DNA from: Acidobacteriota bacterium
GTDB lineage: Bacteria > Actinomycetota > Acidimicrobiia > Acidimicrobiales > Microtrichaceae
Assembly: GCA_003577145.1 (NCBI GenBank)
Contig: QEUP01000004.1
Coordinates: 62,001 to 126,000, forward strand
DNA length: 64,000 nt
Direction of reading: 5' to 3'
Every line of letters starts with the position of its first letter. Within the stretch, counting starts at the first letter, position 1. This document shows, piece by piece, positions 8,409-63,547 of this stretch. The position numbers were made by a program, and so were the translations under genes. Below the pieces are notes generated by a model. That model did not search any database. It was not told where the DNA came from and saw only the letters and a program-made list of their open reading frames with translations.

Positions 8409-9881
8409 CTAGGCGAGGTTCTCGACGAAGCTCTCGAGCTGACGCAGGTTGCGGCACTCGAACACGCCGTCGCAGTGGACTCCATACTCGCCGACGATGG
8501 AGTCACCGGTGTCCCAGTAGCTGCGAGGTTCGGGGTTGAGCCAGAACACGTGACGGGCCTTGTGCCGCATCTCCTTGACGATCCAGCTCTGCGAGGCGTG
8601 GTAGTTGTTGCGGGCATCGCCGAGTATCAGAATGGTCGTCTTGGCATTGACGTCCTTCTCGAAGCGCTGCCAGAACACCTCCAGAGCGTGTCCGTAGTCG
8701 GAGTGCCCGTCCACCCAGACGACGTCGGCCTCGGTGTTGACGCGATGGACCGCCTCGGCAATGTCCTCGGTCCCCTCGAAGAAAGGAGTCACCTCGTCGA
8801 GTCCGTCGATGAAGACGAAGGACCTCACCTTGGAGAACTGGCTGCTGATCGCATACACGAGGTGCAGGGTGAACCGGGCGAACGCCGCGACCGAACCCGA
8901 TATGTCGGCGACAACCATGATCTCGGGTTTGGACGGCCTCGGGTAGCGGAACTTGGGCTCGGCGGGAACCCCGCCGTAGCTCAACGAGTGGCGCATGGTG
9001 TTGCGGAAGTCGAGCGGGCCCTTCCGCCCGTGACGGCGTTTGCGGGCCAGGCGGACCGCCAGCTTGCGGGTCAGCGGGTAGATGGCGTGGCGCAGCATCT
9101 TCATCTCGTCACGGGATGCGTGCATGAAGTCGACATCCTCGGGCAGTGGCTTGCGCAGTGTCTTCGCCATCGCCTCCACCCCCCGGTCCGCCACGAGTCG
9201 CCTGCGGATCTCGGCTTCGATCTCTCGCTTCAGCTCGTCGATGCGTGACTGGAACTCGTCCTCCTCCAGACGAGCCTCCAGCGGCGTCAGCTCTTCGGGG
9301 GCGTCGCGGTGAGCTCGGGTCATGAGCCGGTCGAGTACCCCGTCGAGGTCCAGGTTCCGAAGTGTGCGGTACAGGTAGTACGTTCCCCCGACCGGACGTC
9401 CGGGCTCCATGCCCGCGTAGCGCTGAACCGCCTGACGGGCGACGGCTCTCATCATGGCCTCGTCACCCCGCATCAGAGCCTGGTAGAGCATCTCGGCGAG
9501 CTCCTCGGGCGTCATGGCCTCGCCGCCGCCCGCACCGCTCCGTTCGCCTTGGCCCGTCCCGGCGCCGAGCTCGGCCTCCCGATCCTCGCCGGACTCATCA
9601 CCTCCGGCCTCGCCGCTGATGTCGTACTCGCTTCCCCGCAACGAGAAGTAGACCTCGAACACGGTCTCGAAGGCCCGCCAGTGCGAGTGGTTCTTCACGA
9701 GAGTCGCGCCCAGCGCATACTTGAAGGCCTCGCGGTCCTCCAACGGGATGTGCTTGACCGCCTCCATGGCGTCGAGGTTCTCGGTGAGGCTCACCGGCAG
9801 CCCGGCGTCGCGTAGCTCCTGGATGAAGCCCGCCAGCAGGTCCAGCATCGGTGAGCCGGTGGCGGCCCGGATCTCACTCAT
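8409..9881 (-). CDS. VWA-domain protein, CoxE-like
   Basis: A 490-residue cytoplasmic protein. The N-terminal helical part (about 1-90) is followed by an acidic, Gly/Glu-rich linker (about 95-125), a charged helical region and a C-terminal von Willebrand A domain starting near residue 315 with the metal site VVADISGS (D-x-S-x-S). FVFIDGLDEVT and WVDGHSDYGHAL are later VWA strands. Proteins of this type act with a MoxR-type AAA+ partner in maturation of metalloenzymes such as CO dehydrogenase, or in stress responses. The partner gene is immediately upstream with an 8-bp overlap. No target metalloenzyme is seen nearby. Confidence 0.85.
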   Translation of the reverse strand: MSEIRAATGSPMLDLLAGFIQELRDAGLPVSLTENLDAMEAVKHIPLEDREAFKYALGATLVKNHSHWRAFETVFEVYFSLRGSEYDISGEAGGDESGEDREAELGAGTGQGERSGAGGGEAMTPEELAEMLYQALMRGDEAMMRAVARQAVQRYAGMEPGRPVGGTYYLYRTLRNLDLDGVLDRLMTRAHRDAPEELTPLEARLEEDEFQSRIDELKREIEAEIRRRLVADRGVEAMAKTLRKPLPEDVDFMHASRDEMKMLRHAIYPLTRKLAVRLARKRRHGRKGPLDFRNTMRHSLSYGGVPAEPKFRYPRPSKPEIMVVADISGSVAAFARFTLHLVYAISSQFSKVRSFVFIDGLDEVTPFFEGTEDIAEAVHRVNTEADVVWVDGHSDYGHALEVFWQRFEKDVNAKTTILILGDARNNYHASQSWIVKEMRHKARHVFWLNPEPRSYWDTGDSIVGEYGVHCDGVFECRNLRQLESFVENLA

Positions 9882-10782
9882 CGGTCGAGAAGGGACCGCC
9901 CCGCTTGAAGGCCTGGCCCTCGCTGCTGAACTCCTTGACCGCCTTGGCGATGTCGCTTTGGTACTTCAACAGGATGTTCACTGTCTGGCCGGCCATTTCG
10001 GCATCCACCTTCTCGACGCCGAGAAGAACCAGCGTCCGGGCCCAATCGAGGGTCTCGGACACGGATGGGGACTTCTTCAGCTCCAGCTGGCGGATCGACC
10101 GAACGATCCTGGCGACCTGATCGGCGAGGCTGTCGGAGATGTCGGGGACCTTGGCCAACACGATCGCCTTCTCGCGGTCGAGGTCCGGATAGTCGACATG
10201 CAGATACAGGCACCGGCGCTTGAGAGCCTCGGACAGCTCACGGGTGTTGTTGGAGGTCAAGAAGACGAGCGGGATCTGCTCGGCCCCGATCGTGCCCATC
10301 TCGGGAATGGAGACCTGGTAGTCCGAGAGGATCTCGAGAAGCAGCGCCTCGGTCTCCACTTCCACCCGGTCGACCTCGTCGACGAGCAGCACCACCGGAT
10401 CCTCGGCGCGAATCGCCTCCAGCAGGGGTCGGGTCAGGAGGAAATCGTCGGAGAATATGTTGTCCTCGATCTCGTCCCAGCCCTGGTCCTCGCCCCTCTC
10501 GGCCTGGATGCGGAGCAGCTGCTTCTTGTAGTTCCACTCGTAGAGCGCCTTGGATTCGTCGAGCCCTTCATAGCACTGGAGCCTTATGAGACGAGCGCCG
10601 CTCATCTCGGCGACCGACTTGGCCAGCTGGGTCTTCCCGGTCCCGGCCGGGCCTTCTACCAGCACCGGCTTCTGCAAGCGGTCGGCCAGGTAGACGACGC
10701 CGGCGATGCCCTCATCGGCCAGGTAGTCGACCTTGGCGAGGCCCTCCCGGACACCCTCTACGGAGTCGAAGCGGAAGTCCAT
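9874..10782 (-). CDS. MoxR-family AAA+ ATPase
   Basis: A 302-residue AAA+ protein of the MoxR/CoxD group. Walker A is GPAGTGKTQ near residue 40, Walker B VVLLVDEVDRVE near 130, and a sensor 1 FLTSNNTRE follows. These ATPases act as chaperones together with a VWA protein, here the downstream CoxE-like protein whose start overlaps this stop. The start ATG 10782 is chosen because the conserved region begins immediately after it; the open frame upstream shows no homology. The divergent cyclase gene starts about 140 bp away. Confidence 0.9.
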   Translation of the reverse strand: MDFRFDSVEGVREGLAKVDYLADEGIAGVVYLADRLQKPVLVEGPAGTGKTQLAKSVAEMSGARLIRLQCYEGLDESKALYEWNYKKQLLRIQAERGEDQGWDEIEDNIFSDDFLLTRPLLEAIRAEDPVVLLVDEVDRVEVETEALLLEILSDYQVSIPEMGTIGAEQIPLVFLTSNNTRELSEALKRRCLYLHVDYPDLDREKAIVLAKVPDISDSLADQVARIVRSIRQLELKKSPSVSETLDWARTLVLLGVEKVDAEMAGQTVNILLKYQSDIAKAVKEFSSEGQAFKRGGPFSTDE

Positions 10783-10925
10783 TAGTGCGAGCGTACCGTC
10801 ACCGCGCGCCGGCCGGTCAAAGCGATGACGACCGTCCAGCTCACGCCCAGGATCGGGCTCTCCCTGTACCATGCGATCGGCTCCCCATTGGTCCGGTGGG
10901 CACACGGAAGCAGCAGGAGAGACTC

Positions 10926-11792
10926 GTGCAAGGTCTCACGATCCACCTCGTCGTGTATGCAGTGGTCAACGGGCTCCTGCTGTTCATCTGGGTCCTGTTC
11001 TTCGGCTCCTACGACCAGCTCACCGACTACTTCCGCCATCCCACGGAGGCGCTCAACTCCTCGTTCTGGCCGATCTATCCGATCGTGTTCTGGGGTGCGG
11101 CGGTGCTCATCCACGCCGGGGCCGTCTGCGCCTCGATCCTCTTCGGGCGGAGGGCGCGACAGCGACGGCGGGCGATGGCACAGCAGGTCTTGGCCGCTGC
11201 CGGGACCGCCGCGGGGCGCAAGCACCGCCACGGTCCGCAAAAGCAGTGGGTCACGGCCATGTTCACCGACATATCGAGCAGCACACCTTTGGCGGAGAAC
11301 ATGGGAGACGATGCCTGGCACGACCTCCTCGCCCAGCACCGCGACATGGTCAGGCAGATGATCGGGGAGCACGAAGGCGCCGAGGTCGGCACCCAGGGCG
11401 ACGGCTTCCTGATCCGTTTCGACGAGCCCGAATCGGCTGTGCGCTGCGCCATGGCGATCCAGTCACGGCTGAGCGAGGAGAGAGCCGCCGGACGTGAGGT
11501 TCCGTCGGTGCGGGCGGGCATCCACGCCGGCGAGGTCGTGGAGACCGAGGAGGACATGGTCGGCCGGGTCGTCAACCTTGCCGCCCGCGTCACCGGCTCG
11601 GCCGCTCCCGGTCAGATCCTCGTGACCGAACCGGTCGCTGATCAGCTACCCGCCGACATCGTCGTACACGACTGCGGCCTGCAGGAGCTCAAGGGCATCA
11701 CGCGGCCGCGACACCTGCTGGCCGTCGACTGGCGGGACCACGGCCGGTCATCGCAGACCACTACCGACGAGATCGACCTGCGGGAGCAGTGA
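10926..11792 (+). CDS. class III adenylate/guanylate cyclase with two membrane helices
   Basis: A 288-residue protein. Two hydrophobic helices (about 5-25 and 47-72) form a short membrane anchor, followed by a basic linker and a class III catalytic domain from about 105. The first metal Asp is in MFTDISSST and the second in GTQGDGFLIRF; DMVGRVVNLAARV supplies the transition-state Asn and Arg. The lysine that usually reads adenine just before the GDG motif is replaced (VGTQGDG), so the base specificity is open. The GTG at 10926 has AGGAGA 5 bp upstream, which settles the start. Confidence 0.85.
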   Translation: MQGLTIHLVVYAVVNGLLLFIWVLFFGSYDQLTDYFRHPTEALNSSFWPIYPIVFWGAAVLIHAGAVCASILFGRRARQRRRAMAQQVLAAAGTAAGRKHRHGPQKQWVTAMFTDISSSTPLAENMGDDAWHDLLAQHRDMVRQMIGEHEGAEVGTQGDGFLIRFDEPESAVRCAMAIQSRLSEERAAGREVPSVRAGIHAGEVVETEEDMVGRVVNLAARVTGSAAPGQILVTEPVADQLPADIVVHDCGLQELKGITRPRHLLAVDWRDHGRSSQTTTDEIDLREQ

Positions 11793-14401: not shown

Positions 14402-15649
14402 TCAGGCGCGAACCTGACCCTCACCGACGACTATGTACTTGGCGGTCGTCAGCTGTGCCAGGCCCATGGGTCCTCGCGCGTGCAGCTTCTGGGTGCTGAT
14501 GCCGATCTCGGCGCCGAAGCCGAACTCCTCCCCGTCGACGAAACGCGTCGATGCGTTCACGAGTACCGCCGCAGCATCGACTTCGTCGGTGAATCGTGTA
14601 GCCGCATCGAGATCACGGGTGATGATCGCCTCACTGTGGCCGGTTGAATACTCGTTGACGTGCTCGATGGCCGCATCGAGCGACTGGACAACCCGGATCG
14701 ACATCTTCAGGTCGAGGAACTCGGCGCGGTAGTCCTCGTCGGTGGCGGCCCCCGCACGGGGAACCACCCGGCGGGTCTCCTCGTCGCCCACCAACTCGAC
14801 CTCGGGCATCGCCTGCGCCACCGCCGGGAGGAACCGGTCCGCGATCGCCTCATGGACCACCAGGGACTCGGCTGCGTTGCACACCGACGGTCGCTGAGTC
14901 TTGGCATTCACGACGATATCGAGCGCCATGTCCAGGTCGGCGGAGGCGTCGACGTAGACGTGGCAGTTGCCGTCACCGTCGATGACGTAGGGAACGGTTG
15001 CATTGTCGAGGATCGACCGGATGAGCGACGGGCCACCGCGGGGGATGAGGCAATCCACGAATTCTCGCTGCCGCATGAACTCGAGTGCGGCATCTCGTGA
15101 GGTGTCCTCGACGAGCACCACGGCATCCCCGGGAAGCCCGACCTTGTCGAACCCCTCACGCAGGGCCGACACGATGCCTCGGTTGGAGTCAATGGCGCCG
15201 GAGGAGCCCCTGAGGAACGCGGCGTTTCCGGACTTGACGCAAAGCGCCGCCGCGTCGGACGTCACATTGGGCCGGTTCTCGTAGATGATGGCGACGACGC
15301 CGAGTGGCACCCGGACTCGCCGGATGCGAAGCCCGTTCGGCCGAGTCCAGCCGTCGATTATCTCCCCGACCGGATCCGCCAGCGAGGCAACCTGTCGCAG
15401 ACCCCCGGCCATCCCTTCGACCTTCGCAGCGGTCAGGCGCAGTCGATCGATCACTGTGGCGCTCACCCCTCCGTCCCGGGCGCGAGCAAGGTCGGCGGAG
15501 TTGGCCTCGAGGATCTCCTCCGCACGAGACAGGAGCAGGTCCGCCGCGGCGTTCAAAGCGTCGTTCTTCAGGACCGTCGGGGTGGTGGCCAACAGCCGGG
15601 AGGCGGCCTTGGCGCGTCGACCTAGCTCGGGAACGGGGGTCGGATCCAC
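14402..15649 (-). CDS. proA: gamma-glutamyl phosphate reductase
   Basis: ProA reduces glutamyl 5-phosphate with NADPH to glutamate semialdehyde, the second step of proline synthesis. The 415-residue length is normal. The catalytic cysteine is in QRPSVCNAAESL and the family signature VPRAGAATDEDYRAEFLDL is present, as is the IYENRPNVTSDAAALC segment. It starts at the GTG 15649. In most actinobacteria proA follows proB directly; here proB ends at 23880, about 8 kb away on the same strand, with a block of plus-strand genes between. Confidence 0.97.
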   Translation of the reverse strand: MDPTPVPELGRRAKAASRLLATTPTVLKNDALNAAADLLLSRAEEILEANSADLARARDGGVSATVIDRLRLTAAKVEGMAGGLRQVASLADPVGEIIDGWTRPNGLRIRRVRVPLGVVAIIYENRPNVTSDAAALCVKSGNAAFLRGSSGAIDSNRGIVSALREGFDKVGLPGDAVVLVEDTSRDAALEFMRQREFVDCLIPRGGPSLIRSILDNATVPYVIDGDGNCHVYVDASADLDMALDIVVNAKTQRPSVCNAAESLVVHEAIADRFLPAVAQAMPEVELVGDEETRRVVPRAGAATDEDYRAEFLDLKMSIRVVQSLDAAIEHVNEYSTGHSEAIITRDLDAATRFTDEVDAAAVLVNASTRFVDGEEFGFGAEIGISTQKLHARGPMGLAQLTTAKYIVVGEGQVRA

Positions 15650-15749: not shown

Positions 15750-17252
15750 GTGTCGCCGGCAGTGGACACCGGTCTGGAGCATGCGGTCGCCGCTTTCGTC
15801 AACGAGGTGGCTGACGCCCTCGATGGTGCCGCGCTCACGCTCGATCACATCGAAAGGGAGAAGATCGGCGACCAGGTGATGGTCGAGGCCTTCGACCTCA
15901 GCGCGGCCTTCATCGACTCGGACGAGCTCCACACCGACAGCGAGCTGTGGGCCTTCATCAGGGCGTTCGCTCCGCACTTCTACGACGAGCTCGCACACGC
16001 CACGCCTGCCGACGTCAGGGCAGCAGGATGGATCAAGGATCGGCGTGGGCTTCTCACCGAGCCCAGTGAGTTGTTCGAGACGTTGTGCGAAGCTGATCAC
16101 CGGTGCCGGGCTGGCTACACACTCCGTTACTACCGCCGGGCGATGGACATAGCCCACACAGTGGGCTCACTCGACGACTACATCTCGCGGACCGAACTCC
16201 TGGCGATCGAGCGGTATCGGACGATGCTGCTCCGGCGCATAGACGAAGTGCACGACGACGACGACGACAGCACTCCACCGGTGACGGCCGGGCTTCCCGT
16301 GCCAGAGGCAGCGGCTGTCGGCCGCGGGGTGACCCGGACGCCGGCGACGCCGGCGACGGCGACCGGCGACCTCGGTCCGGCTCGGTCGGTGGATCAGCTC
16401 TTCGCCGAGTTGGATGCGTTGATCGGCCTGGACGGCGTCAAGCAGGAGGTCAAGCTCGTGGCCAACCTGCTCCGCGTCCAACAGCTCCGCAAGTCACGCG
16501 ACCTCCCGGTCCTCGATACAAGTCGTCACCTGGTGTTCACGGGGAATCCGGGCACCGGCAAGACGACCGTTGCACGCCTCCTGGCGCAGCTCTACCGCTC
16601 GCTCGGAGTCGTCGAACGGGGTCATCTCGTCGAAACCGACCGCACCGGCCTCGTCGCAGGATATGTCGGCCAGACCGCCAACCTGGTGCGCCGGCGATTC
16701 GACGAGGCCGAGGAGGGGGTCCTGTTCATCGACGAGGCCTACTCCCTCTCCCGGAGGAGCGAGAACGACTTCGGGCAGGAGGCCATCGACACGATCGTCA
16801 AGCTGATGGAGGACCGCCGCGATTCCGTCGTGCTCATCGCCGCCGGCTACCCCACCGAGATGCGCGACTTCCTCGACTCGAACCCCGGACTGCGGTCCCG
16901 CTTCCCGAAGACGATCCATTTCCCCGACTACTCGACGGCCGAGCTGATGGAGATATTCGGCACAATGGAGGAGAAGAGCCGCTACGTGGCAGACCAGGCG
17001 GCCCGCGAGAAGCTGCGGACGCTCCTCGATTCTCAGATACGAGATGTGGGCTTCGGCAACGGCAGGCTGATACGGAACCTCTTCGAGGCGGCGGTCGCCA
17101 ACCATGCCAGCCGGGTGGTGGACATCCCTGAACCGAGCGACGAGGTGCTCACGACCCTCACCATCGGTGACATCCCCGACGAGGTCGGTCACGCCTTCTT
17201 CGATGCAGGAGCCCCGGACGACGGACCCGGTCAGAACGGCCCGACCGGGTAA
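15750..17252 (+). CDS. AAA+ ATPase of the EccA/CbbX (SpoVK) type with a novel N-terminal domain
   Basis: A 500-residue protein. The C-terminal half (about 210-490) is a CbbX/EccA-type AAA+ module: the LIGLDGVKQEVK entry motif, Walker A TGNPGTGKTT near 268, the pore region AGYVGQTA, Walker B LFIDEAYSL near 326 and a GFGNGRLIRNLFE sensor 2. The N-terminal half is helical and acidic and recalls TerB-like domains (FIDSDELHTDSELWAFIRAF); this is a weak resemblance. An acidic DDDDD linker joins them. No ESX/type VII genes are near, so a type VII role is unlikely. GTG 15750 is chosen because coding character begins there; the open frame extends upstream over proA. The next gene starts 10 bp later. 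Confidence 0.85.
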   Translation: MSPAVDTGLEHAVAAFVNEVADALDGAALTLDHIEREKIGDQVMVEAFDLSAAFIDSDELHTDSELWAFIRAFAPHFYDELAHATPADVRAAGWIKDRRGLLTEPSELFETLCEADHRCRAGYTLRYYRRAMDIAHTVGSLDDYISRTELLAIERYRTMLLRRIDEVHDDDDDSTPPVTAGLPVPEAAAVGRGVTRTPATPATATGDLGPARSVDQLFAELDALIGLDGVKQEVKLVANLLRVQQLRKSRDLPVLDTSRHLVFTGNPGTGKTTVARLLAQLYRSLGVVERGHLVETDRTGLVAGYVGQTANLVRRRFDEAEEGVLFIDEAYSLSRRSENDFGQEAIDTIVKLMEDRRDSVVLIAAGYPTEMRDFLDSNPGLRSRFPKTIHFPDYSTAELMEIFGTMEEKSRYVADQAAREKLRTLLDSQIRDVGFGNGRLIRNLFEAAVANHASRVVDIPEPSDEVLTTLTIGDIPDEVGHAFFDAGAPDDGPGQNGPTG

Positions 17253-17262
17253 CGTCGGTCCC

Positions 17263-18327
17263 ATGAAGCGGTTGCTGGCGCTGGTCGTCGCCGTCGGCCT
17301 GGTGCTGGGAGCAATAGCCATCCGTGGCTGGGCCAGCGGCGATTCGGGGGACGAGGCCGGCACCGGCAACGAAGCGACACCCGACGGGGCCATCACCATC
17401 GTCTGTGATGCAGATCTCGAGGCGGTCTGCCACGAGCTCGAGCTCAGCGTCGACGACGTGACGGTACGCGTGGAGGAAGCGGCCGTAACCGCCGAGGCCT
17501 TGTCACAGGCGAACACCGGTGCGGCGGATGTCGATGGGTGGCTCGTCTCCCAGCCCTGGCCGGGGATGGTGGCTGAACGGAGGGATGCCGCCGGCCAGGT
17601 TCCCGTCCTCGGCTCACCGTCAGCTGCGCTGGCGGTTTCCCCCGGGGTGATGGTGATGGACCGGGAGCGGCAACGAGTGCTTGCGGCGAATTGCGGCGGG
17701 GAGATCACCTGGGAGTGTGTGGGGGAGGTGGCCGGCGACCCCTGGCCCGTCGTAGGTGGTGAGGAAGCGTGGGGAGAGATCAAGCCGGGCGAGCAACCTC
17801 CGGACACCTCCGCGGGCCTGTTGATCCTGGGTCAGGCCGCCTCGAGCTTCTTCGGGACAAGTGATTTCGCCAGCAACGACTTCAGCGCCGATCCCGCTTT
17901 CAGGCCCTGGTTCGAGAAGCTCGCGAGATCGGTGCCGGACTACACGCCGCCGGCCGGCACGCCACTGCAGCAGTTCCTGGTCATACCCGCCTCGTATGAC
18001 GTCGTGGGTGCACTCGAAGCACAAGCCGGGCCGGCCGTCGCCAGCTCACGCGACCGGGATCGACTCACCATCGCCTACCCTTCGCCCATGCTGAGCGCTG
18101 AGGTCGTCCTGGTTCCGACGAGCCCGGCGGTGTCGGGTGAGTCACTGGTCGAACGTCTCGGCGAGGAGCGTCTCGGCGAAGTGCTCGCGGGTCAAGGCTG
18201 GAGGGTCCAGGGCATCTCGCTCGCCGAGGGCCTGGACCCTGACATCGACGTCGGTGATTCGGCACCGCTGCCCGGCGCCGGTGTCTTAGATGCTCTGCGC
18301 TCTCTCTGGATCGAGGTTGTCCGATGA
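17263..18327 (+). CDS. secreted periplasmic-binding-protein-like protein
   Basis: A 354-residue protein with one N-terminal hydrophobic segment (about 4-22), either a signal peptide or an anchor, and an acidic linker. The remainder resembles type 2 solute-binding folds: ITIVCDADLEAVCHEL at the first strand, VDGWLVSQPWPGMV, and LQQFLVIPASYDVVGALEAQ late in the protein. There is no permease or ABC ATPase gene in the neighbourhood, so a sensing or structural role is as likely as transport. Its stop overlaps the next start (ATGA), so translation is coupled to the VWA lipoprotein. Confidence 0.65.
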   Translation: MKRLLALVVAVGLVLGAIAIRGWASGDSGDEAGTGNEATPDGAITIVCDADLEAVCHELELSVDDVTVRVEEAAVTAEALSQANTGAADVDGWLVSQPWPGMVAERRDAAGQVPVLGSPSAALAVSPGVMVMDRERQRVLAANCGGEITWECVGEVAGDPWPVVGGEEAWGEIKPGEQPPDTSAGLLILGQAASSFFGTSDFASNDFSADPAFRPWFEKLARSVPDYTPPAGTPLQQFLVIPASYDVVGALEAQAGPAVASSRDRDRLTIAYPSPMLSAEVVLVPTSPAVSGESLVERLGEERLGEVLAGQGWRVQGISLAEGLDPDIDVGDSAPLPGAGVLDALRSLWIEVVR

Positions 18328-20141
18328 AGCTTCGTCACCTGCTCAGCGTCCTACTCGCCGCCACACTCGTTACGACCTCGTGCAGCAGCGGTGGCGACGA
18401 CGAGGCGGCCGTCGACGATGTTCTGGGCGATCCCGGCGACTGCATCGTCGTCGAGATGTCGGTGTCGTCGGAGAAGATCGAGCTTCTCACGGACCTGGCG
18501 GCCACGTTCAACGAGAGCGAGAACGCGACCGTCGACGGCGAGTGCGTGTTCGTTCGGCCGCAGAGCAAAGCGTCGGGTGGAGCCATGGGTCTGCTGCTCG
18601 ACGGATGGGACGAGAACACCGAAGGCCCGCGCCCTGTCATCTGGTCACCTGCCGCCAGCGCCTGGGGGTCGATCCTCAACCAACGACTCGCCGACGACGG
18701 TCGAGAGCCGATGGTGCCCGACGAGAGCTCCCAGTTCATGCTGACGCCACTCGTGATCGCCATGCCCGAGCCCATGGCACAGGCGCTCGGTTACCCCGAC
18801 ACGCCGATCGGCTGGGCGGACATCTTCGCCCTGGCGACTGATCCCCAGGGCTGGGCCTCTGTCGGGCACCCCGAATGGGGCCCGTTTCGACTGGGCAAGA
18901 CCAACCCCAACTTCTCGACCTCGGGCCTCAACGCACTCATCGCCCAGACATATGCCGCCACCGGAAAGACCGACGGCCTCACGCTGGAGGACCTCTCGGA
19001 CCCGGAGGTCCAGGCGTTCGCCCAAGGCATCGAGTCCGCGGTCGTCCACTACGGCGACATAACCATGACCTTCCTCAACAACTGGTACCGCGCCGATCAA
19101 CGGGGAACTGCGTTGACCTACGCCTCGGCTGTCGCCGTCGAGGAGAAGTCCGTGATCGACTACAACCAGGGCAATCCCGATGGGGTCCTCGACCCCGGCG
19201 AGGAAGCGCGTCCGCCGGAGATCCCCCTCGTCGCGGTATACCCCAACGAAGGAACGCTCTACTCGGACAACCCGTTCTTCATCCTCGAAGCCGACTGGGT
19301 CGACCGGCAGCAGGCTGAGGGCGCGAGGTTGTTCGAGGAGTTCGTGCAGCAGCCCGAGAACCAGGAGCGGGTCCTGGAGTTCGGGTTCCGCCCCGGCAAC
19401 CCCGAAGTCACCATCGGTACCCCGGTCGACGAGAGCAACGGTGTCGACCCGAACCAGCCCCAGACCCTTCTGCAGGTTCCCGAGCCACCGGTACTCGTAC
19501 AGCTGCTCGAGAACTGGGACGAGCAGCGCAAGGAAGCCCGGGTCATGATCGTCCTCGACGTGTCGGGCTCGATGGGAGAAGATGCCCAGCCCGGCGGTGG
19601 CGAGACCAAGCTGGAGCTCGCCAAGCAGGCGGCCATCGACGCTCTCGACGAGTTCAAAGACGACGACATCGTCGGCCTGCGGGTCTTCACCGACCAGATG
19701 GGTTGGGAGGGCAACTTCTTGGATCTCGTCGAACCGGGCCGCATCGGGGATGTTCGGGAGCAGCTCAAGAACGAGATCCGCGGACTGCAGCCGCTGAACG
19801 GGACACCTCTGTACGAGGTCTCGGGTGAGTCGTTCAACCAGATGGTCGAGGACTACGACCCAGCGCGGATCAATGCGATCATCCTCTTGAGCGACGGCGT
19901 CAACGACGACGGCGATCGTTCCGACGACCCGCAGCAGTACCAGGACCTGTTGGCCCTCTTGGAGGACACGACCCAGGGGGAGAACTCGGTGCCGGTGCGC
20001 GTGTTCCCGATCGCCTACGGAGCCGACGCCGATCTGGCAGCCCTGCGGGGCATAGCCGAAGCCAGCAACGCGGCGTTGTACGACGCCTCCGATCCGCTCA
20101 CGATCAACAAGGTGTTCACGGCGGTCGTGAGCAACTTCTGA
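18324..20141 (+). CDS. lipoprotein fusing a solute-binding domain to a VWA domain
   Basis: A 605-residue exported lipoprotein with lipobox ending TTS-C20. Residues about 40-370 form a type 2 binding-protein-like domain (EKIELLTDLAATFNES, VIWSPAASAWGSIL, a segment with NPNFSTSGLNALIAQ), as in molybdate/sulfate/iron binders. Residues about 405-600 form a von Willebrand A domain with an intact metal site VLDVSGSMG, LNGTPLY and LLSDGVNDDGD. Together with the paralogous binding-like protein just upstream and the AAA+ gene before it, this suggests an envelope sensing or assembly system, not an ordinary importer. Translation is coupled to the upstream gene by a 4-bp overlap. Confidence 0.85.
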   Translation: MKLRHLLSVLLAATLVTTSCSSGGDDEAAVDDVLGDPGDCIVVEMSVSSEKIELLTDLAATFNESENATVDGECVFVRPQSKASGGAMGLLLDGWDENTEGPRPVIWSPAASAWGSILNQRLADDGREPMVPDESSQFMLTPLVIAMPEPMAQALGYPDTPIGWADIFALATDPQGWASVGHPEWGPFRLGKTNPNFSTSGLNALIAQTYAATGKTDGLTLEDLSDPEVQAFAQGIESAVVHYGDITMTFLNNWYRADQRGTALTYASAVAVEEKSVIDYNQGNPDGVLDPGEEARPPEIPLVAVYPNEGTLYSDNPFFILEADWVDRQQAEGARLFEEFVQQPENQERVLEFGFRPGNPEVTIGTPVDESNGVDPNQPQTLLQVPEPPVLVQLLENWDEQRKEARVMIVLDVSGSMGEDAQPGGGETKLELAKQAAIDALDEFKDDDIVGLRVFTDQMGWEGNFLDLVEPGRIGDVREQLKNEIRGLQPLNGTPLYEVSGESFNQMVEDYDPARINAIILLSDGVNDDGDRSDDPQQYQDLLALLEDTTQGENSVPVRVFPIAYGADADLAALRGIAEASNAALYDASDPLTINKVFTAVVSNF

Positions 20142-20205
20142 CCGGCCATGCCAACTTCGGATTCACTGCCGGGTGCCCCTCTGGTGCTCGGCTGCCCGGA
20201 GTAGC

Positions 20206-21102
20206 GTGACGGCGGTGGCACTTCGTCTTCGCGATCGCATCCTGACACCACCGGTGGCAAGGGCGATGATGTCGCCCTCGGCCATAGTGCTGACCGGAGT
20301 GGGGGCCGCAGTCGGAATCCTGGTCGGACTCGGACCCATCGGCGCCGTGGGCCTGGCAGCCGTTGCGTGGGCTGCGAGGGTCGGGGCGGCAGTCCCCCGT
20401 GGGCCTCGTGCCGAGCGCATCGATCCCTTTACGCTTCCCGAACCGTGGCGCTTCTACGTCAGGGATGCCCTCCAGGCGCAGTCACGCTACAACGAGGCCG
20501 TCCACTCGACTCCCGAGGGACCGCTTCACGACCGGCTGTTCGACATCGGCACGCGCGTGGACCAACTGACGGGCGAGGCCTGGAAGATCGCCCGCCGCGG
20601 CAACACCCTCGCCGAAGCCGCCAAGAGGATCGATGTGACGCAGGTGCAGAAGGAGCTCGACGAGATCGGCCCGCAGGCGAGCGAGGTGTGGGCCGCGGGC
20701 ACCTCGATCGCCGATACAGCCAAGGCACTCACCTCCCAGTTGCAGTCAGCCGAGCGGATGCACTCACTCGCAGCCCAGGCGGACGGCATGCTGAAGGTCC
20801 TCAACGCGCGGCTCGACGAGCTCGTCGCACGCACCATCGAGTTGTCGGTGCACGCTGACAGCGTCTCCGAGACCGGTGGCCTCGGTACCGAGGTCGACAA
20901 CCTGCTCGGCGAGCTCGAGGCGCTCCGTGGTGCCCTCGAGGAGACCACCACCGGTTCAGTCCCCCTGCCGGAGATGCCACCGGCGACGGCGCCTCACGCC
21001 GACTCCGCCCCTGAGCCCCAGGCCCGCCCCACCACCCTCCCGCCGTCCGAACCGGCACCCACCGACGACTCCCGCTCAGCCGGCGACACGGATGAGCGCT
21101 GA
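20206..21102 (+). CDS. coiled-coil membrane protein of unknown function
   Basis: About 298 residues. Two hydrophobic stretches between about 20 and 60 can form a helical hairpin, followed by LPEPWRFYVRDAL and a long helical region (about 85-245) with coiled-coil character, then a Pro/Ala-rich tail. The layout of a membrane hairpin plus helices recalls XpaC-like proteins of tellurite-type stress clusters, but I cannot claim homology. The GTG at 20206 has GGAG 4 bp upstream; GTG 20215 is an alternative. The last 11 bases overlap murJ. Confidence 0.6.
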   Translation: MTAVALRLRDRILTPPVARAMMSPSAIVLTGVGAAVGILVGLGPIGAVGLAAVAWAARVGAAVPRGPRAERIDPFTLPEPWRFYVRDALQAQSRYNEAVHSTPEGPLHDRLFDIGTRVDQLTGEAWKIARRGNTLAEAAKRIDVTQVQKELDEIGPQASEVWAAGTSIADTAKALTSQLQSAERMHSLAAQADGMLKVLNARLDELVARTIELSVHADSVSETGGLGTEVDNLLGELEALRGALEETTTGSVPLPEMPPATAPHADSAPEPQARPTTLPPSEPAPTDDSRSAGDTDER

Positions 21103-22861
21103 TCCCGACACCCCAGAGCCCGACGGCAAGGATGCCACCGAGGCACCGGCCCCGGCGCAGAGCACCGGCCGCTCGTCCATAGCGGTAGGCGCCGGCATCC
21201 TGCTTTCGCGCATCGCCGGTTTCCTTCGCGAAGCAGCGCTCGCCCGTTTCCTGGGCATAGGGTTCGCCGCCGACGCGGTCCGAGCAGCCATGCGGATACC
21301 CAACCTCCTCCAGAACCTGCTGGGCGAGGGGGTGCTCTCAGCGGCCTTCATACCCGTCTACAGCCGGATCGTCGAGAGCGAGGACGAGGAGCGAGCCGGA
21401 GAAGTCGCCGGGGCCATCGCCGGAATACTGATCGCCGTCACGACCGCGGTGACCGCAGTGGTGGTGGTGTTCGCCCGTCCGATCACCGCGGTGATGACGC
21501 CCGGCTTCGACGGCAGGACCTTCGACCTCACAGTCACGCTGGTGAGGATCATGACGCTGGGCCTCGGCTTCCTGGTCATGTCGGCTTGGTGCCTGGGGAT
21601 CCTCAACTCGCACCGCCGGTTCTTCCTGCCGTTCGTGGCACCGGTCCTGTGGAACGCAGCTCAGATCGTGGTGATCGTCTTCGTCGGGCTGCTCGGCTGG
21701 ACCGACTCCTCGATCGCAGTGGCCCTGGCATGGGCGCTCGTCGTCGGCGGGCTTCTCCAGCTCGTCGTGCAGCTTCCGGCGGTCCTGCGCCTCGTCCCGC
21801 ACCTCAGGCTGAGCCTGCGATCCAAGGAGCGTGACGTCCGAGACGTCCTCCGCCGTACCGGCCCTGCTCTCCTGGGCCGGGGGATCGTGCAGATCAGTGC
21901 CTTCGCCGACGTCGTGCTGGCGAGCATGCTGGTAACCGGCGCCGTGGCCGCCCTCGGCTACGCCCAAGTGCTCTATGTACTCCCGATCAGCCTCTTTGCC
22001 ATGTCCGTCGCGGCTGCCGAGCTACCCGAGCTGTCCCGCGAGAGCGAGGCAGTGAGGCAGATCCAGCTGCGACTGGTGATCGCGCTACGCCGGATCGTCT
22101 TCTATGTCTTCTTCGCCGCGGTCATGTACGTGACTGTCGGGGATCTGATCATCAGCGTCCTCTTCGAGGGGGGCGAGTTCACCCACGACGACACGCTGCT
22201 CGTCTGGTACATCCTCGTCGGGTACAGCGTGGCCATCGTCGCGAGCAGCGAGTCCCGCCTGCTGCAGAACACCCTGTATGCCCGGAACGACGTTGTCACG
22301 CCGGCCGAGATCGCTGCCGTCCGCCTCGTCGTGTCCGTCGGTCTGTCGATCCCTCTCATGTTCAGCCTCGACCGGCTGGTCATAGTCGACGGCCACATCA
22401 GCGGGTGGTCGGACCTCCCGGCCTTCTGGCCGCTTCCCGCCGACGTCCGCTCAGAAGCCGGCACCGTCCATCTCGGCGCGGTCGGAATCGCGCTGGCTTC
22501 GTCGTTTGCCTCGCTGGTGGAGGTCGCCCTGCTGAGGCGACGCTGCTCGACGGAGCTGGGGTGGAACCCACCGATCGGCCGGTCCGTGTCGCGCCTCGTG
22601 CCGGTGGCCCTGTTGACCGGGATGGAGTCCGTCGCCCTCGTTATCGGCCTCGAAGCGATCCCTGACATCCTCTCGCTGCCGTTCATCCTCGTGGCCGCCT
22701 TCGTCACCTGGATCGCTGCTTCCCACTGGCTGGGGTTGTTCGAAGCCGACGAGGCGATGATCCCGGTGCGCCGTGCAGTGGAACGGGTTCGCGAGGCTTA
22801 CCGGCCGTCGAGCCGCGGGTCGGGTGATCAGCACGACGCCGGTGGTGGACCGAGCCGCTAG
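21092..22861 (+). CDS. murJ: lipid II flippase MurJ/MviN family
   Basis: A 589-residue membrane protein. After a charged, Pro-rich N-terminus (about 30 residues), the MurJ core begins with AVGAGILLSRIAGFLREAAL and continues with RIPNLLQNLLGEG, the family signature of the first helices. About 14 membrane helices can be traced. MurJ flips lipid-linked peptidoglycan precursor to the outer face. In many actinobacteria murJ lies near the origin end with trxB; here it is inside the proA-proB insertion, so it may be a second copy or an MviN relative. Start ATG 21092 lies within the end of the preceding gene. Confidence 0.88.
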   Translation: MSADPDTPEPDGKDATEAPAPAQSTGRSSIAVGAGILLSRIAGFLREAALARFLGIGFAADAVRAAMRIPNLLQNLLGEGVLSAAFIPVYSRIVESEDEERAGEVAGAIAGILIAVTTAVTAVVVVFARPITAVMTPGFDGRTFDLTVTLVRIMTLGLGFLVMSAWCLGILNSHRRFFLPFVAPVLWNAAQIVVIVFVGLLGWTDSSIAVALAWALVVGGLLQLVVQLPAVLRLVPHLRLSLRSKERDVRDVLRRTGPALLGRGIVQISAFADVVLASMLVTGAVAALGYAQVLYVLPISLFAMSVAAAELPELSRESEAVRQIQLRLVIALRRIVFYVFFAAVMYVTVGDLIISVLFEGGEFTHDDTLLVWYILVGYSVAIVASSESRLLQNTLYARNDVVTPAEIAAVRLVVSVGLSIPLMFSLDRLVIVDGHISGWSDLPAFWPLPADVRSEAGTVHLGAVGIALASSFASLVEVALLRRRCSTELGWNPPIGRSVSRLVPVALLTGMESVALVIGLEAIPDILSLPFILVAAFVTWIAASHWLGLFEADEAMIPVRRAVERVREAYRPSSRGSGDQHDAGGGPSR

Positions 22862-23016
22862 GCGAGGATCCGTGTGACAGCACCCGTCGAGCCCAAGCAC
22901 AGCTTGGCGAGGCGAACCCTCGGCGCGATCAGCTCGACCCATCTGGACAGCCCCTCTGGTGAGCCATCATCGCTTCCGGGCGCTTCAACCGCCCGCCGAG
23001 GGATAGCATCAGGACC

Positions 23017-23871
23017 ATGATCAAGCTCGTCAAACGTTGGTGGAAGTACATGACTGCCAAGTTGAGCGGGAAGTTCAGCGAATCCGCTGACCCCAAGGTT
23101 CAACTGGAGCAGGCGATCATCGAGGCACAGGATCAGCATCGCCGCCTGAAGGAACAGGCGGCGAATGTGATCGCCAACCAGAAGCAGACCGAGATGCGGC
23201 TCAATCGGACCATGGAGGAATACGAGCGGGTGAGCGCCAACGCCCGCCAGGCTGTCCTCATGGCCGACGACGCCTCCAAGTCGGGTCAATCCACCAAGGT
23301 GACCGAGTACACCCAAGCCGCCGAGGCTTTCGCCAACCGCATGATCGCACTCGAACGTGAGGTGGAGGACCTCAAGTCCCTGCACCTCCAGTCGGCCCAG
23401 GCCGCCGACCAGGCCAAGCAGGCAGTCCAGCAGAACGCCATGGCACTGCAGAAGAAGCTCTCGGAACGCCAGAAGCTGCTGGGCCAGCTCGACCAGGCGA
23501 AGATGCAGGAGCAGATGAACGTCGCCATGGCATCCCTCAGCGAGACCGTCGGCGAGGACGTGCCGTCCTTCGACGAGGTGCGCGAGAAGATCGAAGCCCG
23601 CTACGCGAAGGCCAAGGGCATGTCAGAGCTGACGGAGTCCACGGTCGAGACCAAGATGCTCGAGGTGGAGAAGGCAGCCATGAGCACCGAGGCTCAGGCA
23701 CGCCTGTCAGAGATCCGCACACAGCTCGGCATTGCGGCTCCGGTCGAGGAAGCGGCCGGTTCAGAAGCCCTCGATTCAGGAGCATCCGGTCAGGGCGAGA
23801 GCGGGGCCCCCGCTCCGCCGGCGGAGGCCGAGACAAGCCCACCCCAGCCACAGGCCCAGACGGAACCCTGA
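23017..23871 (+). CDS. PspA/IM30 family protein
   Basis: A 284-residue, almost wholly helical protein. The N-terminal amphipathic segment IKLVKRWWKYMTAKL can bind membranes, followed by long coiled coil (about 25-215) typical of PspA/Vipp1/IM30 (ESADPKVQLEQAIIEAQ matches the family's start). The last 50 residues are a Pro/Ala/Glu-rich tail. PspA proteins polymerise on damaged membranes and protect them. It is convergent with proB with only 8 bp between stops. Being downstream of murJ and the AAA+/VWA run it may belong to the same envelope unit, though 155 bp separate it from murJ. Confidence 0.88.
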   Translation: MIKLVKRWWKYMTAKLSGKFSESADPKVQLEQAIIEAQDQHRRLKEQAANVIANQKQTEMRLNRTMEEYERVSANARQAVLMADDASKSGQSTKVTEYTQAAEAFANRMIALEREVEDLKSLHLQSAQAADQAKQAVQQNAMALQKKLSERQKLLGQLDQAKMQEQMNVAMASLSETVGEDVPSFDEVREKIEARYAKAKGMSELTESTVETKMLEVEKAAMSTEAQARLSEIRTQLGIAAPVEEAAGSEALDSGASGQGESGAPAPPAEAETSPPQPQAQTEP

Positions 23872-23879
23872 TCGCGTCG

Positions 23880-24977
23880 TTACGACAGCACTACGAGGTC
23901 GTCACGATGGATGACCTCGGCGGACACATCGTCGCCCAACTCGTCGCTGCGGCGCCCAGCCATCCTCACCAGACCGCCGGAATCGACCCGGGCCAGCCCT
24001 TTGGCAAAGACCTCACCAGTGGGATCGACGACCTCAACCGCGTCATCAGCCTCGAACTCCCCCTCGACTCCGACGACACCCGCCGCGAGAAGGGAGCGAC
24101 CCTGCTCCACCAGCGCCCGCCGTGCCCCTCGATCGACGATGATGGATCCCTTCGAGCCGATGGCGAAGGCGATCCACAGCTTGCGGGCCGGAAGGCGACG
24201 ATCACGGGGGTGAACCACCGTCCCCACACCCGGCTGACCAGCCACGGCATCCCTCAGCACATGCTCGCGGTCGGCCGCGGCGATGACGGTACGCACTCCC
24301 GACCAGGCAGCGATCCGTGCGGCCGCCACCTTGGTGGCCATCCCGCCGCTTCCGCGCGGCGTCCGTGAGCCACCGGCCAGCTCGTCGAGCTCCTTGTCGA
24401 GCTCGACGATCTCCTCGATCAGCGAGGCCGACTCATCTATACCGGGGTCGGCGGTGTGCAGACCAGCGGTGTCGGTCAACAGCACCAGGATGTCTGCGCC
24501 GACGAGGTGCGCGACCAGTGCGGCTATCCGGTCGTTGTCCCCGAAGCGGATCTCGTCGTCGGCGATGGCGTCGTTCTCGTTGACGATCGGCAGCACTCCG
24601 AGATCGAGCAACCGGGAGAGCGTGCTGCGGGCATGCAGGTACTGTTGCCTGACCATGAAGTCGAGGGGGGCGAGAAGGACCTGGCCACCAACCAAGCCGT
24701 GCTCCCGCTCCAGAACGTCGTTGTAGACCCGCATCAACCGCGTCTGGCCCACCGCCGAGACCGCCTGGAGGGTGCGGGAGTCGGCAGGTCGGTTGGTCGC
24801 GCTCAGGCCCAACTCGGGAAGTCCTGCCGCGATCGCGCCCGAGGTCACCAGCACGACCTGGCTACCGGCCTCACGCAGGCCGGCCAGCTCGCGGCACAGC
24901 TTGGCGATGGCGGTCTGGTCGATCACGCCGTGCTCGTCGGTGATCGAGGACGTTCCGACCTTGGCCACCACGATCAC
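23880..24977 (-). CDS. proB: glutamate 5-kinase
   Basis: ProB phosphorylates glutamate, the first and feedback-regulated step of proline synthesis. The 365-residue protein has the amino acid kinase domain (VVAKVGTSSIT at the start, VTSGAIAAGLPELGL, NENDAIADDEIRFGDND, GSGGMATKVAAARIA) and a C-terminal PUA domain (about 270-360). It starts at GTG 24977, which overlaps the obg stop by 4 bp, so it is translationally coupled to obg. ProA is 8 kb downstream. Confidence 0.97.
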   Translation of the reverse strand: MIVVAKVGTSSITDEHGVIDQTAIAKLCRELAGLREAGSQVVLVTSGAIAAGLPELGLSATNRPADSRTLQAVSAVGQTRLMRVYNDVLEREHGLVGGQVLLAPLDFMVRQQYLHARSTLSRLLDLGVLPIVNENDAIADDEIRFGDNDRIAALVAHLVGADILVLLTDTAGLHTADPGIDESASLIEEIVELDKELDELAGGSRTPRGSGGMATKVAAARIAAWSGVRTVIAAADREHVLRDAVAGQPGVGTVVHPRDRRLPARKLWIAFAIGSKGSIIVDRGARRALVEQGRSLLAAGVVGVEGEFEADDAVEVVDPTGEVFAKGLARVDSGGLVRMAGRRSDELGDDVSAEVIHRDDLVVLS

Positions 24978-26351: not shown

Positions 26352-27956
26352 TCAGTTCACGAGGCGGACCGGGTCGCCGACGATCCGCACGGACCAAGTT
26401 GTCCTGTCGGTCACGTCAGCGTTGAAGTCGTAATAGATCTTCCACCAGTGGTCGTCCGGGTACAGGGTCTCGTAGTCCTCCGGTAGGTCGACCGCTATCT
26501 CGACGTAGCGCTCGTTGAAGCGGCAACGGCTCTGACGCCCGGGGCCGAGTTGGGGCCAGCCCACGCAGCCGCTGACGTTGAGTTGGGTCGTCGGGCCACC
26601 GCTGTAGTCCCCATCCCGCGTCTGGTAGGTGAAGGGCACTGAGTTGCCGTTCGGGTCGCGGACCTCGACGTAGTTGCCGCCTTCACCCGGGTCGAAGAGG
26701 GTGATGATCATCTGCTTGCCGGCGTGCTCAGGCTCGATCTCGGCCAGGTAGAACTCGGCTTCGGGGGCATTCGCCTGGGCGTAGATCGACATCCAGTTCT
26801 TGCCGAACACGGCCGGGCACTGGGGATCGTTGCGGGTGTCACAGACCGTACCGCTGGTGCCCTTGGTGGCGAAGATCGAGTAGTTGTTGACGCTGAAGGC
26901 GTCCTCCTCCATGGCCTGGTTGTGGACCTGGAGTATCCAGCGGCCGGCTGGGGCGTTTGCGGGGATGGTGCAGAAACGGGTCCAGCGGTTGCTGCCGAAG
27001 AAGCTGAAGTCGAAATCGCTCTCCCCGTACGGGAAGGTCCGTGGATTGGCACCGTCACTCGTGCAGCCGCCGTAGATGGGGTTGTCGCTGTCGTCGAAGG
27101 GCGTGTTGTCGGGCTCGCGGAGCGTGAAGGTGGTGGTAAGCGGCTGGTTCCCGCCCAGGTCCGGGCTGGCGGTCGCGCTGTCGTGTTTCGCGGCGTCGTA
27201 GATGGAGATGATCGTGTCCTGGCCTCGGGCCTCGGGTAGCTCGACGATGTACTCGTACTGGGGCATGGTCAGGTAGTCATCGTTCACCTCGAAGTAGCTG
27301 TCACCGGTGAAGGGGTCGCTGTTCGGCCCGGGTCCCAGCGGTGACGGGCAGATCATCGTGTTGGGCCAGTTCCCGGAAAAGCGGGTGGCGAAGGGGTCCC
27401 CCTGCTCCTTGGGGGCGCAGAAGCCGTTGAGGGCCATCCAGAAGCCCTCCGGCCCGTTGGGTGGGCCGACCATGCCCGCGGTGCCGATGTAGTTCTTGGG
27501 GCTGCCGAGGGGTACGGGAAGGACGTACTCGGCGACCGCTGCCCTCTCTATCAACACGTTGTCGAGGAACAGCGACGAGAAGTAGAGGTCTGCTGCGTCA
27601 TCGCTGATCGTCACCCGCAGTTGCTGGGTCCCGACCGATTCCACGACGATGGATATCTCCGGATCGTTGGAGTCGAATCCGTTCTCCCTGGCGGTGTCGA
27701 GCGCAACGTCAGTCGCCTTCGGCAGGTCGGGAAGCCACACCACTCCGGCCAGCGAAGCGGCATCAGCCGCCCGCTGCATGCGGATCCCCTCGGCGTACCA
27801 CGAGCCCACGTCGGTGGCGAAGCCGACCACCGCGAGCAGCGGGATCATGAGCAGGGCCGACAGTGCCAGCACGTACCCTGTCTCAGCCGGTCGCCGTGAG
27901 TGCGCGGACCGGTTGTGTGCAGACTGTGCCGTCCTGGACTGCTGCGATCTCATCAT
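26352..27956 (-). CDS. TadG-like pseudopilin/surface protein
   Basis: A 534-residue protein. A basic, Ser-rich N-terminus leads to one membrane helix (about 27-48, YVLALSALLMIPLLAVVGFATDV in parts) with the TadG feature DVGSWYAEGIRMQRAADAASLAG, as in Tad secretion-associated proteins. The long extracellular part holds two beta-rich modules that resemble each other (RWILQVHNQAMEEDAFSVNN near 345; later AGKQMIITLFDPGEGGNY), with six or more cysteines. The ATG overlaps the stop of the preceding TadE-like gene. No TadA/B/C motor genes are within the window. Confidence 0.8.
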   Translation of the reverse strand: MMRSQQSRTAQSAHNRSAHSRRPAETGYVLALSALLMIPLLAVVGFATDVGSWYAEGIRMQRAADAASLAGVVWLPDLPKATDVALDTARENGFDSNDPEISIVVESVGTQQLRVTISDDAADLYFSSLFLDNVLIERAAVAEYVLPVPLGSPKNYIGTAGMVGPPNGPEGFWMALNGFCAPKEQGDPFATRFSGNWPNTMICPSPLGPGPNSDPFTGDSYFEVNDDYLTMPQYEYIVELPEARGQDTIISIYDAAKHDSATASPDLGGNQPLTTTFTLREPDNTPFDDSDNPIYGGCTSDGANPRTFPYGESDFDFSFFGSNRWTRFCTIPANAPAGRWILQVHNQAMEEDAFSVNNYSIFATKGTSGTVCDTRNDPQCPAVFGKNWMSIYAQANAPEAEFYLAEIEPEHAGKQMIITLFDPGEGGNYVEVRDPNGNSVPFTYQTRDGDYSGGPTTQLNVSGCVGWPQLGPGRQSRCRFNERYVEIAVDLPEDYETLYPDDHWWKIYYDFNADVTDRTTWSVRIVGDPVRLVN

Positions 27957-63473: not shown

Positions 63474-63547
63474 TGGAGCGGGTGAAGGGGATCGAACCCT
63501 CATAACCAGCTTGGAAGGCTGGGGCTCTGCCATTGAGCTACACCCGC
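63474..63547 (-). tRNA. tRNA-Gly (anticodon TCC)
   Basis: The acceptor stem pairs GCGGGTG with CACCCGC, the D arm is GCTCAATGGCAGAGC, the anticodon loop CTTCCAA reads TCC within the CCAGC/GCTGG stem, and the T arm contains GGTTCGATCC. The 3' CCA is encoded. The 3' end faces the integrase segment, the usual geometry for integration into a tRNA. Confidence 0.95.

Follow-up and report, generated by a model that had tools for sequence, protein, structure and literature searches.

The closest described relatives of the locus reported here are the phage-shock protein (PSP) systems, the SpoVK-CbbX-EccA chaperones and the MoxR-VWA systems. In the parts of the PSP survey available to us (PMC11237479), PspA is encoded next to AAA+ ATPases, and some of the operons also specify a solute- or peptidoglycan-binding protein. 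In mycobacteria, a membrane partner with two transmembrane helices is found beside PspA. According to the sections of PMC10659427 at hand, ATPases of the SpoVK-CbbX-EccA clade are dedicated chaperones, and SpoVK acts on cell-wall synthesis by activating MurG. MoxR-VWA systems, exemplified by RavA-ViaA, pair an AAA+ protein with a VWA protein at the inner membrane (PMC9489729, in the portion available). Here, we describe six genes, at positions 15750-23871 of a 64,000-nucleotide stretch of contig QEUP01000004.1, that share parts with each of these systems. We refer to the whole stretch as the window, and all positions are window positions. Our reading, held tentatively and a little short of even confidence, is that the six genes form one operon encoding a module for envelope stress and quality control, of the phage-shock type and equipped with an external sensor and an AAA+ chaperone of its own. 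The genes, and those flanking them, are as follows.

15750-17252, + strand: AAA+ ATPase gene (GTG start by choice; Pfam and NCBIfam)
17263-18327, + strand: P2, an anchored protein resembling solute-binding proteins (SBPs) (profile comparison, AlphaFold model)
18324-20141, + strand: P3, SBP_bac_11-VWA lipoprotein (Pfam)
about 20206-21102, + strand: P4, membrane hairpin plus helical tail (hydrophobic windows)
21092-22861, + strand: murJ, lipid II flippase (TIGR01695 above cut-off)
23017-23871, + strand: pspA (Pfam PspA_IM30)
14402-15649, - strand: proA, left border, outside the system
23880-24977, - strand: proB, right border, outside the system

An earlier, sequence-only reading had placed six plus-strand genes, four of them tightly packed or overlapping, between proA and proB, and the coordinates confirm the observation. 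Briefly, P2 and P3 overlap by 4 bp, P4 and murJ overlap by 11 bp, 10 bp separate the AAA+ gene from P2, and 155 bp lie between murJ and pspA. Note that the script measuring these junctions took 20218 as the start of P4, for which the sequence offers a GTG codon at 20206 or 20215. Promoter and terminator scans returned nothing above chance, and an Rfam scan of the window found a single tRNA (63477-63547, - strand). In PADLOC, P2, P3 and P4 had no match, and murJ was left outside the scan. The AAA+ protein matched only below-expectation AAA-type families, and PspA matched weak coiled-coil families.

The locus differs from each described system in some respects. While PspA_IM30 is shared with PSP systems, as may be a two-helix membrane partner, no PspB, PspC or ClgR gene is among the six. 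Furthermore, unlike the contexts in the available parts of the PSP survey, the AAA+ protein here bears the marks of SpoVK/CbbX/EccA chaperones, and the external part consists of an SBP-like protein and an SBP-VWA lipoprotein. Clade features are held in common with the SpoVK-CbbX-EccA chaperones, but the ATPase has its own helical N-domain and sits in an operon with SBP/VWA, MurJ and PspA. As in RavA-ViaA, an AAA+ protein accompanies a VWA protein. However, the VWA domain of P3 lies outside the cytoplasm and does not belong to the CoxE family (PF05762; E = 0.19, 11.6 bits, under the cut-off of 26.4), and a genuine MoxR-CoxE pair is encoded separately at 8409-10905. The terms 'vwa', 'acidimicrobi' and 'cbbx' do not occur in the main text of PMC11237479, and none of five queried terms is present in PMC7159879. 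In the literature searched, with subscription papers mostly outside it, the operon is described nowhere and 'substrate-binding and VWA' is likewise without mention. The parts are known, and in that same literature we found this combination undescribed. Since the available parts of PMC11237479 already report PspA with AAA+ and with solute-binding proteins, the locus can be viewed as a variant of known PSP-type contexts.

Evidence for a conserved gene set comes from relatives of P3. We used 80 named loci or contigs, the best 80 of 212 confirmed relatives, and counted each partner, with profiles plus tblastn, where the flank allowed. Note that these loci are related to one another and the counts are not independent. 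P3 was accompanied by P2 in 74 of 75 cases, P4 in 70 of 70, AAA+ in 49 of 64, PspA in 38 of 48 and MurJ in 30 of 53. Profiles alone gave near-identical figures (P2 71/75, P4 68/70, AAA+ 48/63, pspA 38/48 and murJ 30/53). The loci were then divided by whether both, one or neither pro gene was present. The 34 loci with long flanks comprised 20 with both pro genes (AAA+ in 18, pspA in 19, murJ in 15), five with one (2, 2 and 3, respectively) and nine with neither (6, 6 and 0). Because of these counts, we conclude that P2, P3 and P4 are the core, that AAA+ and PspA are regular travelling partners, and that murJ belongs to the pro locus. It was thus too strong to treat proA and proB as a fixed frame, given that both occur at only 20 of the 34 loci, or murJ as a fixed member.

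Gene order is similarly maintained. Among 20 stretches around P3 in relatives, 11 contain the complete series proA-AAA-P2-P3-P4-pspA-proB, nine of these with murJ in addition. The remaining nine stretches end at a stretch or contig border, or lack a member. Overlaps of 4 bp occur between AAA+ and P2 in 10 of 18 stretches, and between P2 and P3 in 14 of 20; both counts include the window and use starts picked by script. The cluster also appears in contigs titled Nitriliruptorales (L088, and L082 without AAA+ in the stretch). Strain IMCC26207 (L099) has the whole set, whereas in Desertimonas flava (L145) the stretch contains P2-P3-P4-murJ without AAA+, and pspA is on the opposite strand. In four loci (L053, L054, L057 and L065), P3 and P4 are separated by an additional 1.7-5 kb or so, which in L057 encodes a small secreted protein, cupredoxin-like by eye. 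In all, P3 was matched in 34 of the 61 genomes in the relatives set, the window's own included. The six-gene set is conserved in Acidimicrobiia and some relatives.

Co-occurrence of the SBP-VWA fusion with the AAA+ gene was the check proposed for the idea of one system. In 346 genomes of the phylum, the P3 profile matched 42 at E <= 1e-10, with 16 reaching at least 750 bits, and a profile search found full-length AAA+ in 23. Full length was defined as a match starting at profile position 17 or earlier with at least 560 bits; note that the 750-bit and 560-bit cuts were set after viewing the lists. Of the 16 strong-P3 genomes, 15 also encode the full-length AAA+ protein (Fisher p = 1e-19, uncorrected for kinship). 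Together with recurrence of the cluster away from the pro genes, this bears out the expected co-occurrence. The exception, G395, keeps P2-P3-P4, and AAA+ is absent from the stretch read (L192). Eight genomes have full-length AAA+ without a strong P3, and in G239 AAA+ and P3 are on separate contigs. We also inspected ten relatives chosen because neither P3 nor full AAA+ had been found in them. The proB gene adjoins proA in two (L235 and L237); P4, murJ or pspA lies 5' of proA in four (L230-L233); and nothing was recognised in the 1.5-kb flanks of four. The statement that proA and proB are normally neighbours was thus borne out in two of these ten. P4 still adjoins murJ in L230, and pspA in L231.

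We now consider the external proteins. In P3, Pfam identifies SBP_bac_11 at residues 47-356 (E = 1.3e-11) and a VWA domain at 407-597 (VWA_2, E = 2.3e-8; VWA, E = 3.6e-6). The cysteine at a lipobox-like position, Cys20, is invariant in 21 aligned rows. These results agree with the description of P3 as a lipoprotein fusing solute-binding and VWA domains. In the same rows, D412, S414, G415, S416, T494 and D524, residues of the metal ion-dependent adhesion site (MIDAS) type, are invariant, and DxSGS is kept in 87 of 88 strong homologues. Judged from these residues, the MIDAS of the VWA domain is intact. P3 also contains a loop, D-Y-N-x-G-N-P-D-G-x-x-D-P-G-E (residues 279-293, window 19158-19202), that resembles an EF-hand calcium loop with an insertion. 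A strict pattern recurs in 73 of 88 strong homologues, and none of 30 weak homologues carries a looser EF-loop pattern.

P2 matches no Pfam family and has a hydrophobic anchor at about residues 1-26. Profiles of 21 P3 and 20 P2 sequences show that P2 is homologous to the SBP part of P3 (hhalign probability 98.2, E = 5.4e-14). The AlphaFold model of P2 (mean predicted local distance difference test score, pLDDT, 90.5) is closest in the PDB to the sulfate-binding protein 5um2 (Z 22.9; root-mean-square deviation, rmsd, 3.9 over 270 residues). The next matches are proteins that bind sugar phosphates, thiamin, ferric iron and polyamines. Among the 50 PDB entries listed, Z ranges from 16.7 to 22.9 for this two-lobed SBP fold. 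The binding-like protein that had been called secreted is thus an SBP fold as proposed, but membrane-anchored. Mean column identity is 65% for P3 and 38% for P2, with 10 invariant columns in the latter. Because P3 is strongly and P2 weakly conserved, the ligand site is probably in P3, with P2 perhaps a degenerate partner.

P4 has two adjacent hydrophobic stretches at its N-terminus, followed by a long tail that looks helical or coiled-coil and is predicted, from its charge, to be cytoplasmic. With the 11-bp overlap, this matches the coiled-coil membrane protein overlapping murJ that the sequence-only reading had recognised. No Pfam family scores above cut-off. The same reading had suggested comparing this 298-residue protein with XpaC. 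There was no Pfam match to PF10112 (XpaC/Halogen_Hydrol) at E <= 1, and PF10112 was not among the 25 of 50 families listed for 25 P4 sequences. With one XpaC sequence only, the comparison gave 3.5 bits and an hhalign probability of 0.2. Kinship with XpaC is unsupported and, for now, rejected.

In layout, P4 also resembles PspM, which the available parts of PMC11237479 report only from mycobacteria and corynebacteria. Both have two transmembrane helices and then a helical region, and both genes adjoin pspA, but that for PspM is downstream of pspA and that for P4 is upstream. The comparison used open reading frames (ORFs) next to pspA from a single family (f62, presumably mycobacteria and relatives), with eight genomes in all. 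One genome (L248) had no candidate, and another (L246) had only a 91-residue ORF, kept for hhalign and dropped from the shuffle test. The hhalign probability was 4, best-domain scores were 5.2-11.2 bits in six sequences, and 0-2 of 400 shuffles reached the real score. A PspM-like role for P4 is possible, with sequence similarity that is weak and suggestive only.

The AAA+ protein contains the Pfam domains AAA and AAA_lid_6, with the AAA+ part and lid at about residues 210-482. Its AlphaFold model has a mean pLDDT of 88.6, and the nearest solved fold is CbbX (3syl_B; Z 27.1, rmsd 4.0 over 269 residues). Within the sections of PMC10659427 at hand, the marks of the SpoVK/CbbX/EccA clade are a GY sensor-1, an Asn before the Arg finger, a variable N-domain and no peptidase domain. 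The catalytic residues are intact: K271, D328, E329 and the sensor-1 pair G366 and Y367 are present in 24 of 24 rows. N378 and R384 are likewise found in 24 of 24 rows and R382 in 18; both N378 and R382 are present in the window copy. We take R382 to be the first Arg finger, and N378 lies four residues before it. R439 and R442 are both in 24 of 24 rows, and we read one of them as sensor-2 (the second Arg finger). The top NCBIfam models are SpoVK, CbbX and EccA, in that order, and all three scores are below the equivalog cut-offs (276.9 against 422.95 bits for SpoVK, 222 against 459.25 for CbbX and 220.6 against 466.65 for EccA). The protein carries the features of the clade without being SpoVK, CbbX or EccA proper, in keeping with its earlier description as EccA/CbbX-like. 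The precedent of SpoVK and MurG is the strongest hint that it may serve a client in the envelope.

The last two genes fit an envelope role. The window pspA product matches PspA_IM30 with E = 4.4e-32. There was one PspA_IM30 match per genome in 13 genomes searched, the window's included; in five genomes of the order, the sole match is the copy at this locus. The window's genome has three matches to the MurJ model, and that at the locus is the best, with 293 bits (the next has 240 and the third 26). A sole PspA, the best-scoring MurJ match and an ATPase from the clade in which SpoVK activates MurG are all in keeping with the envelope function that had been proposed. The murJ gene overlaps P4 in 13 of 19 stretches, by 4 bp in 12 of these. 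At the same position, MurJ is 25-29% identical to that of the window in most stretches, and 43% and 49% in L055 and L070. Such divergence suggests replacement, or exchange of paralogues, at one address.

The fusion of SBP and VWA domains, taken alone, is already known and also occurs outside this operon. NCBI uses the product name 'substrate-binding and VWA domain-containing protein' for a plasmid copy in Streptomyces sp. NBC_00564, which is 41.7% identical over 94% of P3. No AAA+, PspA or MurJ is annotated within 7 kb of this copy. The ORF that follows has a hydrophobic N-terminus and a tail that is helical by eye. Elsewhere, the original P4 profile identifies a P4 homologue following P3 at L193 (E = 1e-20), with pspA as the next gene, and at L153-L155 and L192, with E values from 4e-11 to 3e-4. 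In Miltoncostaea oceani, the fusion is followed by a gene with a score of 19.1 bits, whose product has a hydrophobic N-terminus. A plasmid of the gammaproteobacterium Candidatus Thiodictyon syntrophicum (L240, 5935-9966) encodes the fusion and, after it, another SBP_bac_11 protein and a small protein. This tandem is a P3-P2-like arrangement in another phylum; the small protein, at 0.2 bits, has no similarity to P4.

If the six genes are one operon, they would be transcribed together and could act as follows. P3, as a lipoprotein, and the membrane-anchored P2 would be displayed on the outer face. The SBP cleft of P3 would bind a small ligand, and its metal-dependent VWA face would dock a partner, most simply P2. 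The state of P2 and P3 could be passed, through the single membrane helix of P2 and the membrane hairpin of P4, to the cytoplasmic tail of P4, which would serve PspA as a receptor at the membrane, in PspM-like fashion. We picture the AAA+ protein as a dedicated SpoVK/CbbX/EccA-type chaperone. Its N-domain, perhaps metal-responsive, would bring it to P4 or PspA, and MurJ may be a further target at pro loci. ATP hydrolysis might then remodel PspA assemblies, or keep the lipid II flippase working under stress. A more ambitious version is a trans-envelope machine. Here, the SBP-VWA protein and P2 would report envelope or wall-precursor status, via a PspM-like P4, to an AAA+ protein with a TerB-like head that controls PspA assembly and, where murJ is in the operon, the flippase, giving one ATP-driven switch for membrane repair and wall supply. 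We consider this version possible but on the unlikely side, slightly more so because murJ is absent from all nine loci without pro genes.

Several observations weigh against the proposed module. First, the fall in murJ from 15 of 20 loci with both pro genes to 0 of 9 with neither means that its link may be positional. Second, the two halves of the set are separable, since each occurs alone: P2-P3-P4 without AAA+ or pspA in L084, L137, L144 and L139 (the last with short flanks), and AAA-P4-murJ-pspA without P2 or P3 in L068, L070, L072 and L074. Third, in the comparison of P4 with PspM, reversed controls gave 10.9 bits against a real 11.2, 5.2, which equals the real score, and 5.8 against 7.1; the window PspA itself scored 9.9. 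Fourth, distant fusions have poorer partners. The Streptomyces ORF reaches 0.2 bits with the original P4 profile, so its likeness to P4 comes only from the hydrophobic N-terminus and the look of the tail. In L198, the gene after P3 has only 7.5 bits, although PspA then follows, and for most of the distant P3 loci (L194-L217) a P4-like partner was not seen. What the sequences show is gene order, domain assignments, the kinship of P2 and P3, a conserved gene set and intact motifs, from which co-transcription, ligand sensing, docking, the membrane relay and the clients of the AAA+ protein are inferred.

The separability of the halves raises an alternative that we judge unlikely, yet far from negligible. 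Two modules may share an address, with AAA-P4-murJ-pspA at the pro locus and P2-P3 as an inserted pair, having no mechanistic coupling to the AAA+ protein. Both the solitary halves and the confinement of murJ would follow. Genome G008 provides a natural split, having P2-P3-P4 on one contig (L061) and AAA-P4-murJ-pspA on another (L074), each with its own copy of P4. Conversely, such independence fits less well with the 4-bp overlap of AAA+ and P2 in more than half of the stretches where it was scored. Similarly, AAA+, P2, P3, P4 and pspA are together, with neither pro gene, in L088, L092, L103, L109, L130 and L136, and all but one of the strong-P3 genomes encode the full-length AAA+ protein.

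A second alternative concerns the all-helical N-domain of the AAA+ protein (residues 1-175), which in the window copy matches no Pfam model. We derived the defining residues of TerB from eight TerB sequences alone; in these rows an invariant D and E, seven apart, occur twice, with 79 residues between the D's. The N-domain has an equivalent doubled D-x6-E, at D58/E65 and D142/E149. In 76 AAA+ N-domains, the first pair is kept in 76 (D) and 73 (E) cases and the second in 65 and 71, with a D-D spacing of 84. The locus might thus be a metal or oxyanion stress system of the Ter/Tel kind, where the N-domain senses metal and P2 and P3 bind an oxyanion or metal outside. That sulfate-binding protein is the closest fold to P2, with ferric-binding protein lower in the list, and that P3 has an EF-hand-like loop, would suit this idea. 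Profile searches speak against it. Pfam TerB (PF05099) matches 3 of the 76 N-domains, at best with E = 0.022, does not match that of the window, and has no match anywhere in the window's genome; DUF5984 matches 4 of the 76. The hhalign probability against TerB is 8.8 for the 76 members. A smaller N-domain alignment gave 4.4, when P4, which is unrelated, already reaches 3.0 and a reversed TerB set 0.2. Moreover, P4 has no match to XpaC. We regard a Ter/Tel-kind system as improbable.

TerB as a proven assignment for the N-domain is rejected: profiles of 24 and 76 members, run against Pfam and the eight TerBs, were without a significant match. Searches of PDB sequences with the N-domain found nothing significant, and two PDB fold searches, made with the full-length AAA+ model only, listed AAA+ domains alone. 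Of the suggestion that the N-domain is TerB-like, the doubled signature with similar spacing stands, and family membership is not supported by the profiles; the domain is probably best described as TerB-like in signature without being a member of TerB.

Given that both P2 and P3 have SBP folds, they could also serve an ABC importer as its binding proteins, with the permease gene located elsewhere. As the sequence-only reading had remarked, no transporter membrane subunit is present: the ORF list and Pfam reveal no permease-like ORF or ABC ATPase among the six genes. In addition, P3 is fused to a VWA domain, the steady companion is P4 instead, and P2 is anchored with few invariant columns. An importer is, in our view, very improbable. 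We give almost no credence to an EccA-like secretion accessory, in which the AAA+ protein handles exported clients: the AAA+ domain is covered by the EccA model with E = 3.5e-65, but its 220.6 bits are far under the cut-off of 466.65 and below the SpoVK score, and there is no type VII secretion gene among the six, the search being limited to those six and not extended to the whole genome.

A second AAA+/VWA pair is encoded nearby, divergently from the operon, and was absent from the earlier list of genes.

9874-10905, - strand: MoxR-type AAA+, possible associate (AAA, AAA_5 and AAA_3 above cut-off)
8409-9881, - strand: CoxE-type VWA protein, overlapping the MoxR gene (PF05762, E = 7.9e-46)

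This pair is of the cytoplasmic type. We counted named loci having 4 kb or more of sequence ahead of AAA+ (ahead of P3 if there is no AAA+): one or both of the genes lie upstream in 32 of 35 loci with proA and 2 of 20 without. Over all fetched loci, where some contigs are repeated, the counts were 37 of 41 and 6 of 57, respectively. In the rows of relatives examined, MoxR/CoxE is on the opposite strand. A distance of 108-210 bp separates the MoxR match from that of AAA+ in L068, L072, L074, L115, L126 and L132, so a shared promoter region is possible in those six loci. In the window, a protein with two transmembrane helices and an adenylate/guanylate cyclase catalytic domain (10785-11792, + strand) adjoins the MoxR gene. 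On the other side, past obgE, is a TadE/G-like pilus-assembly protein (26352-27956, - strand), and a similar-looking ORF is seen by eye in L053 and L074.

Returning to the proposed module, our data describe a lineage with one PspA per genome, as observed in five genomes of the order. Its putative operon links PspA to an AAA+ protein of a chaperone clade, a hairpin protein of the membrane and a binding/VWA pair outside the cell membrane. If these are truly coupled, an extracellular ligand could act on membrane repair and, at the pro locus, on lipid II export as well.

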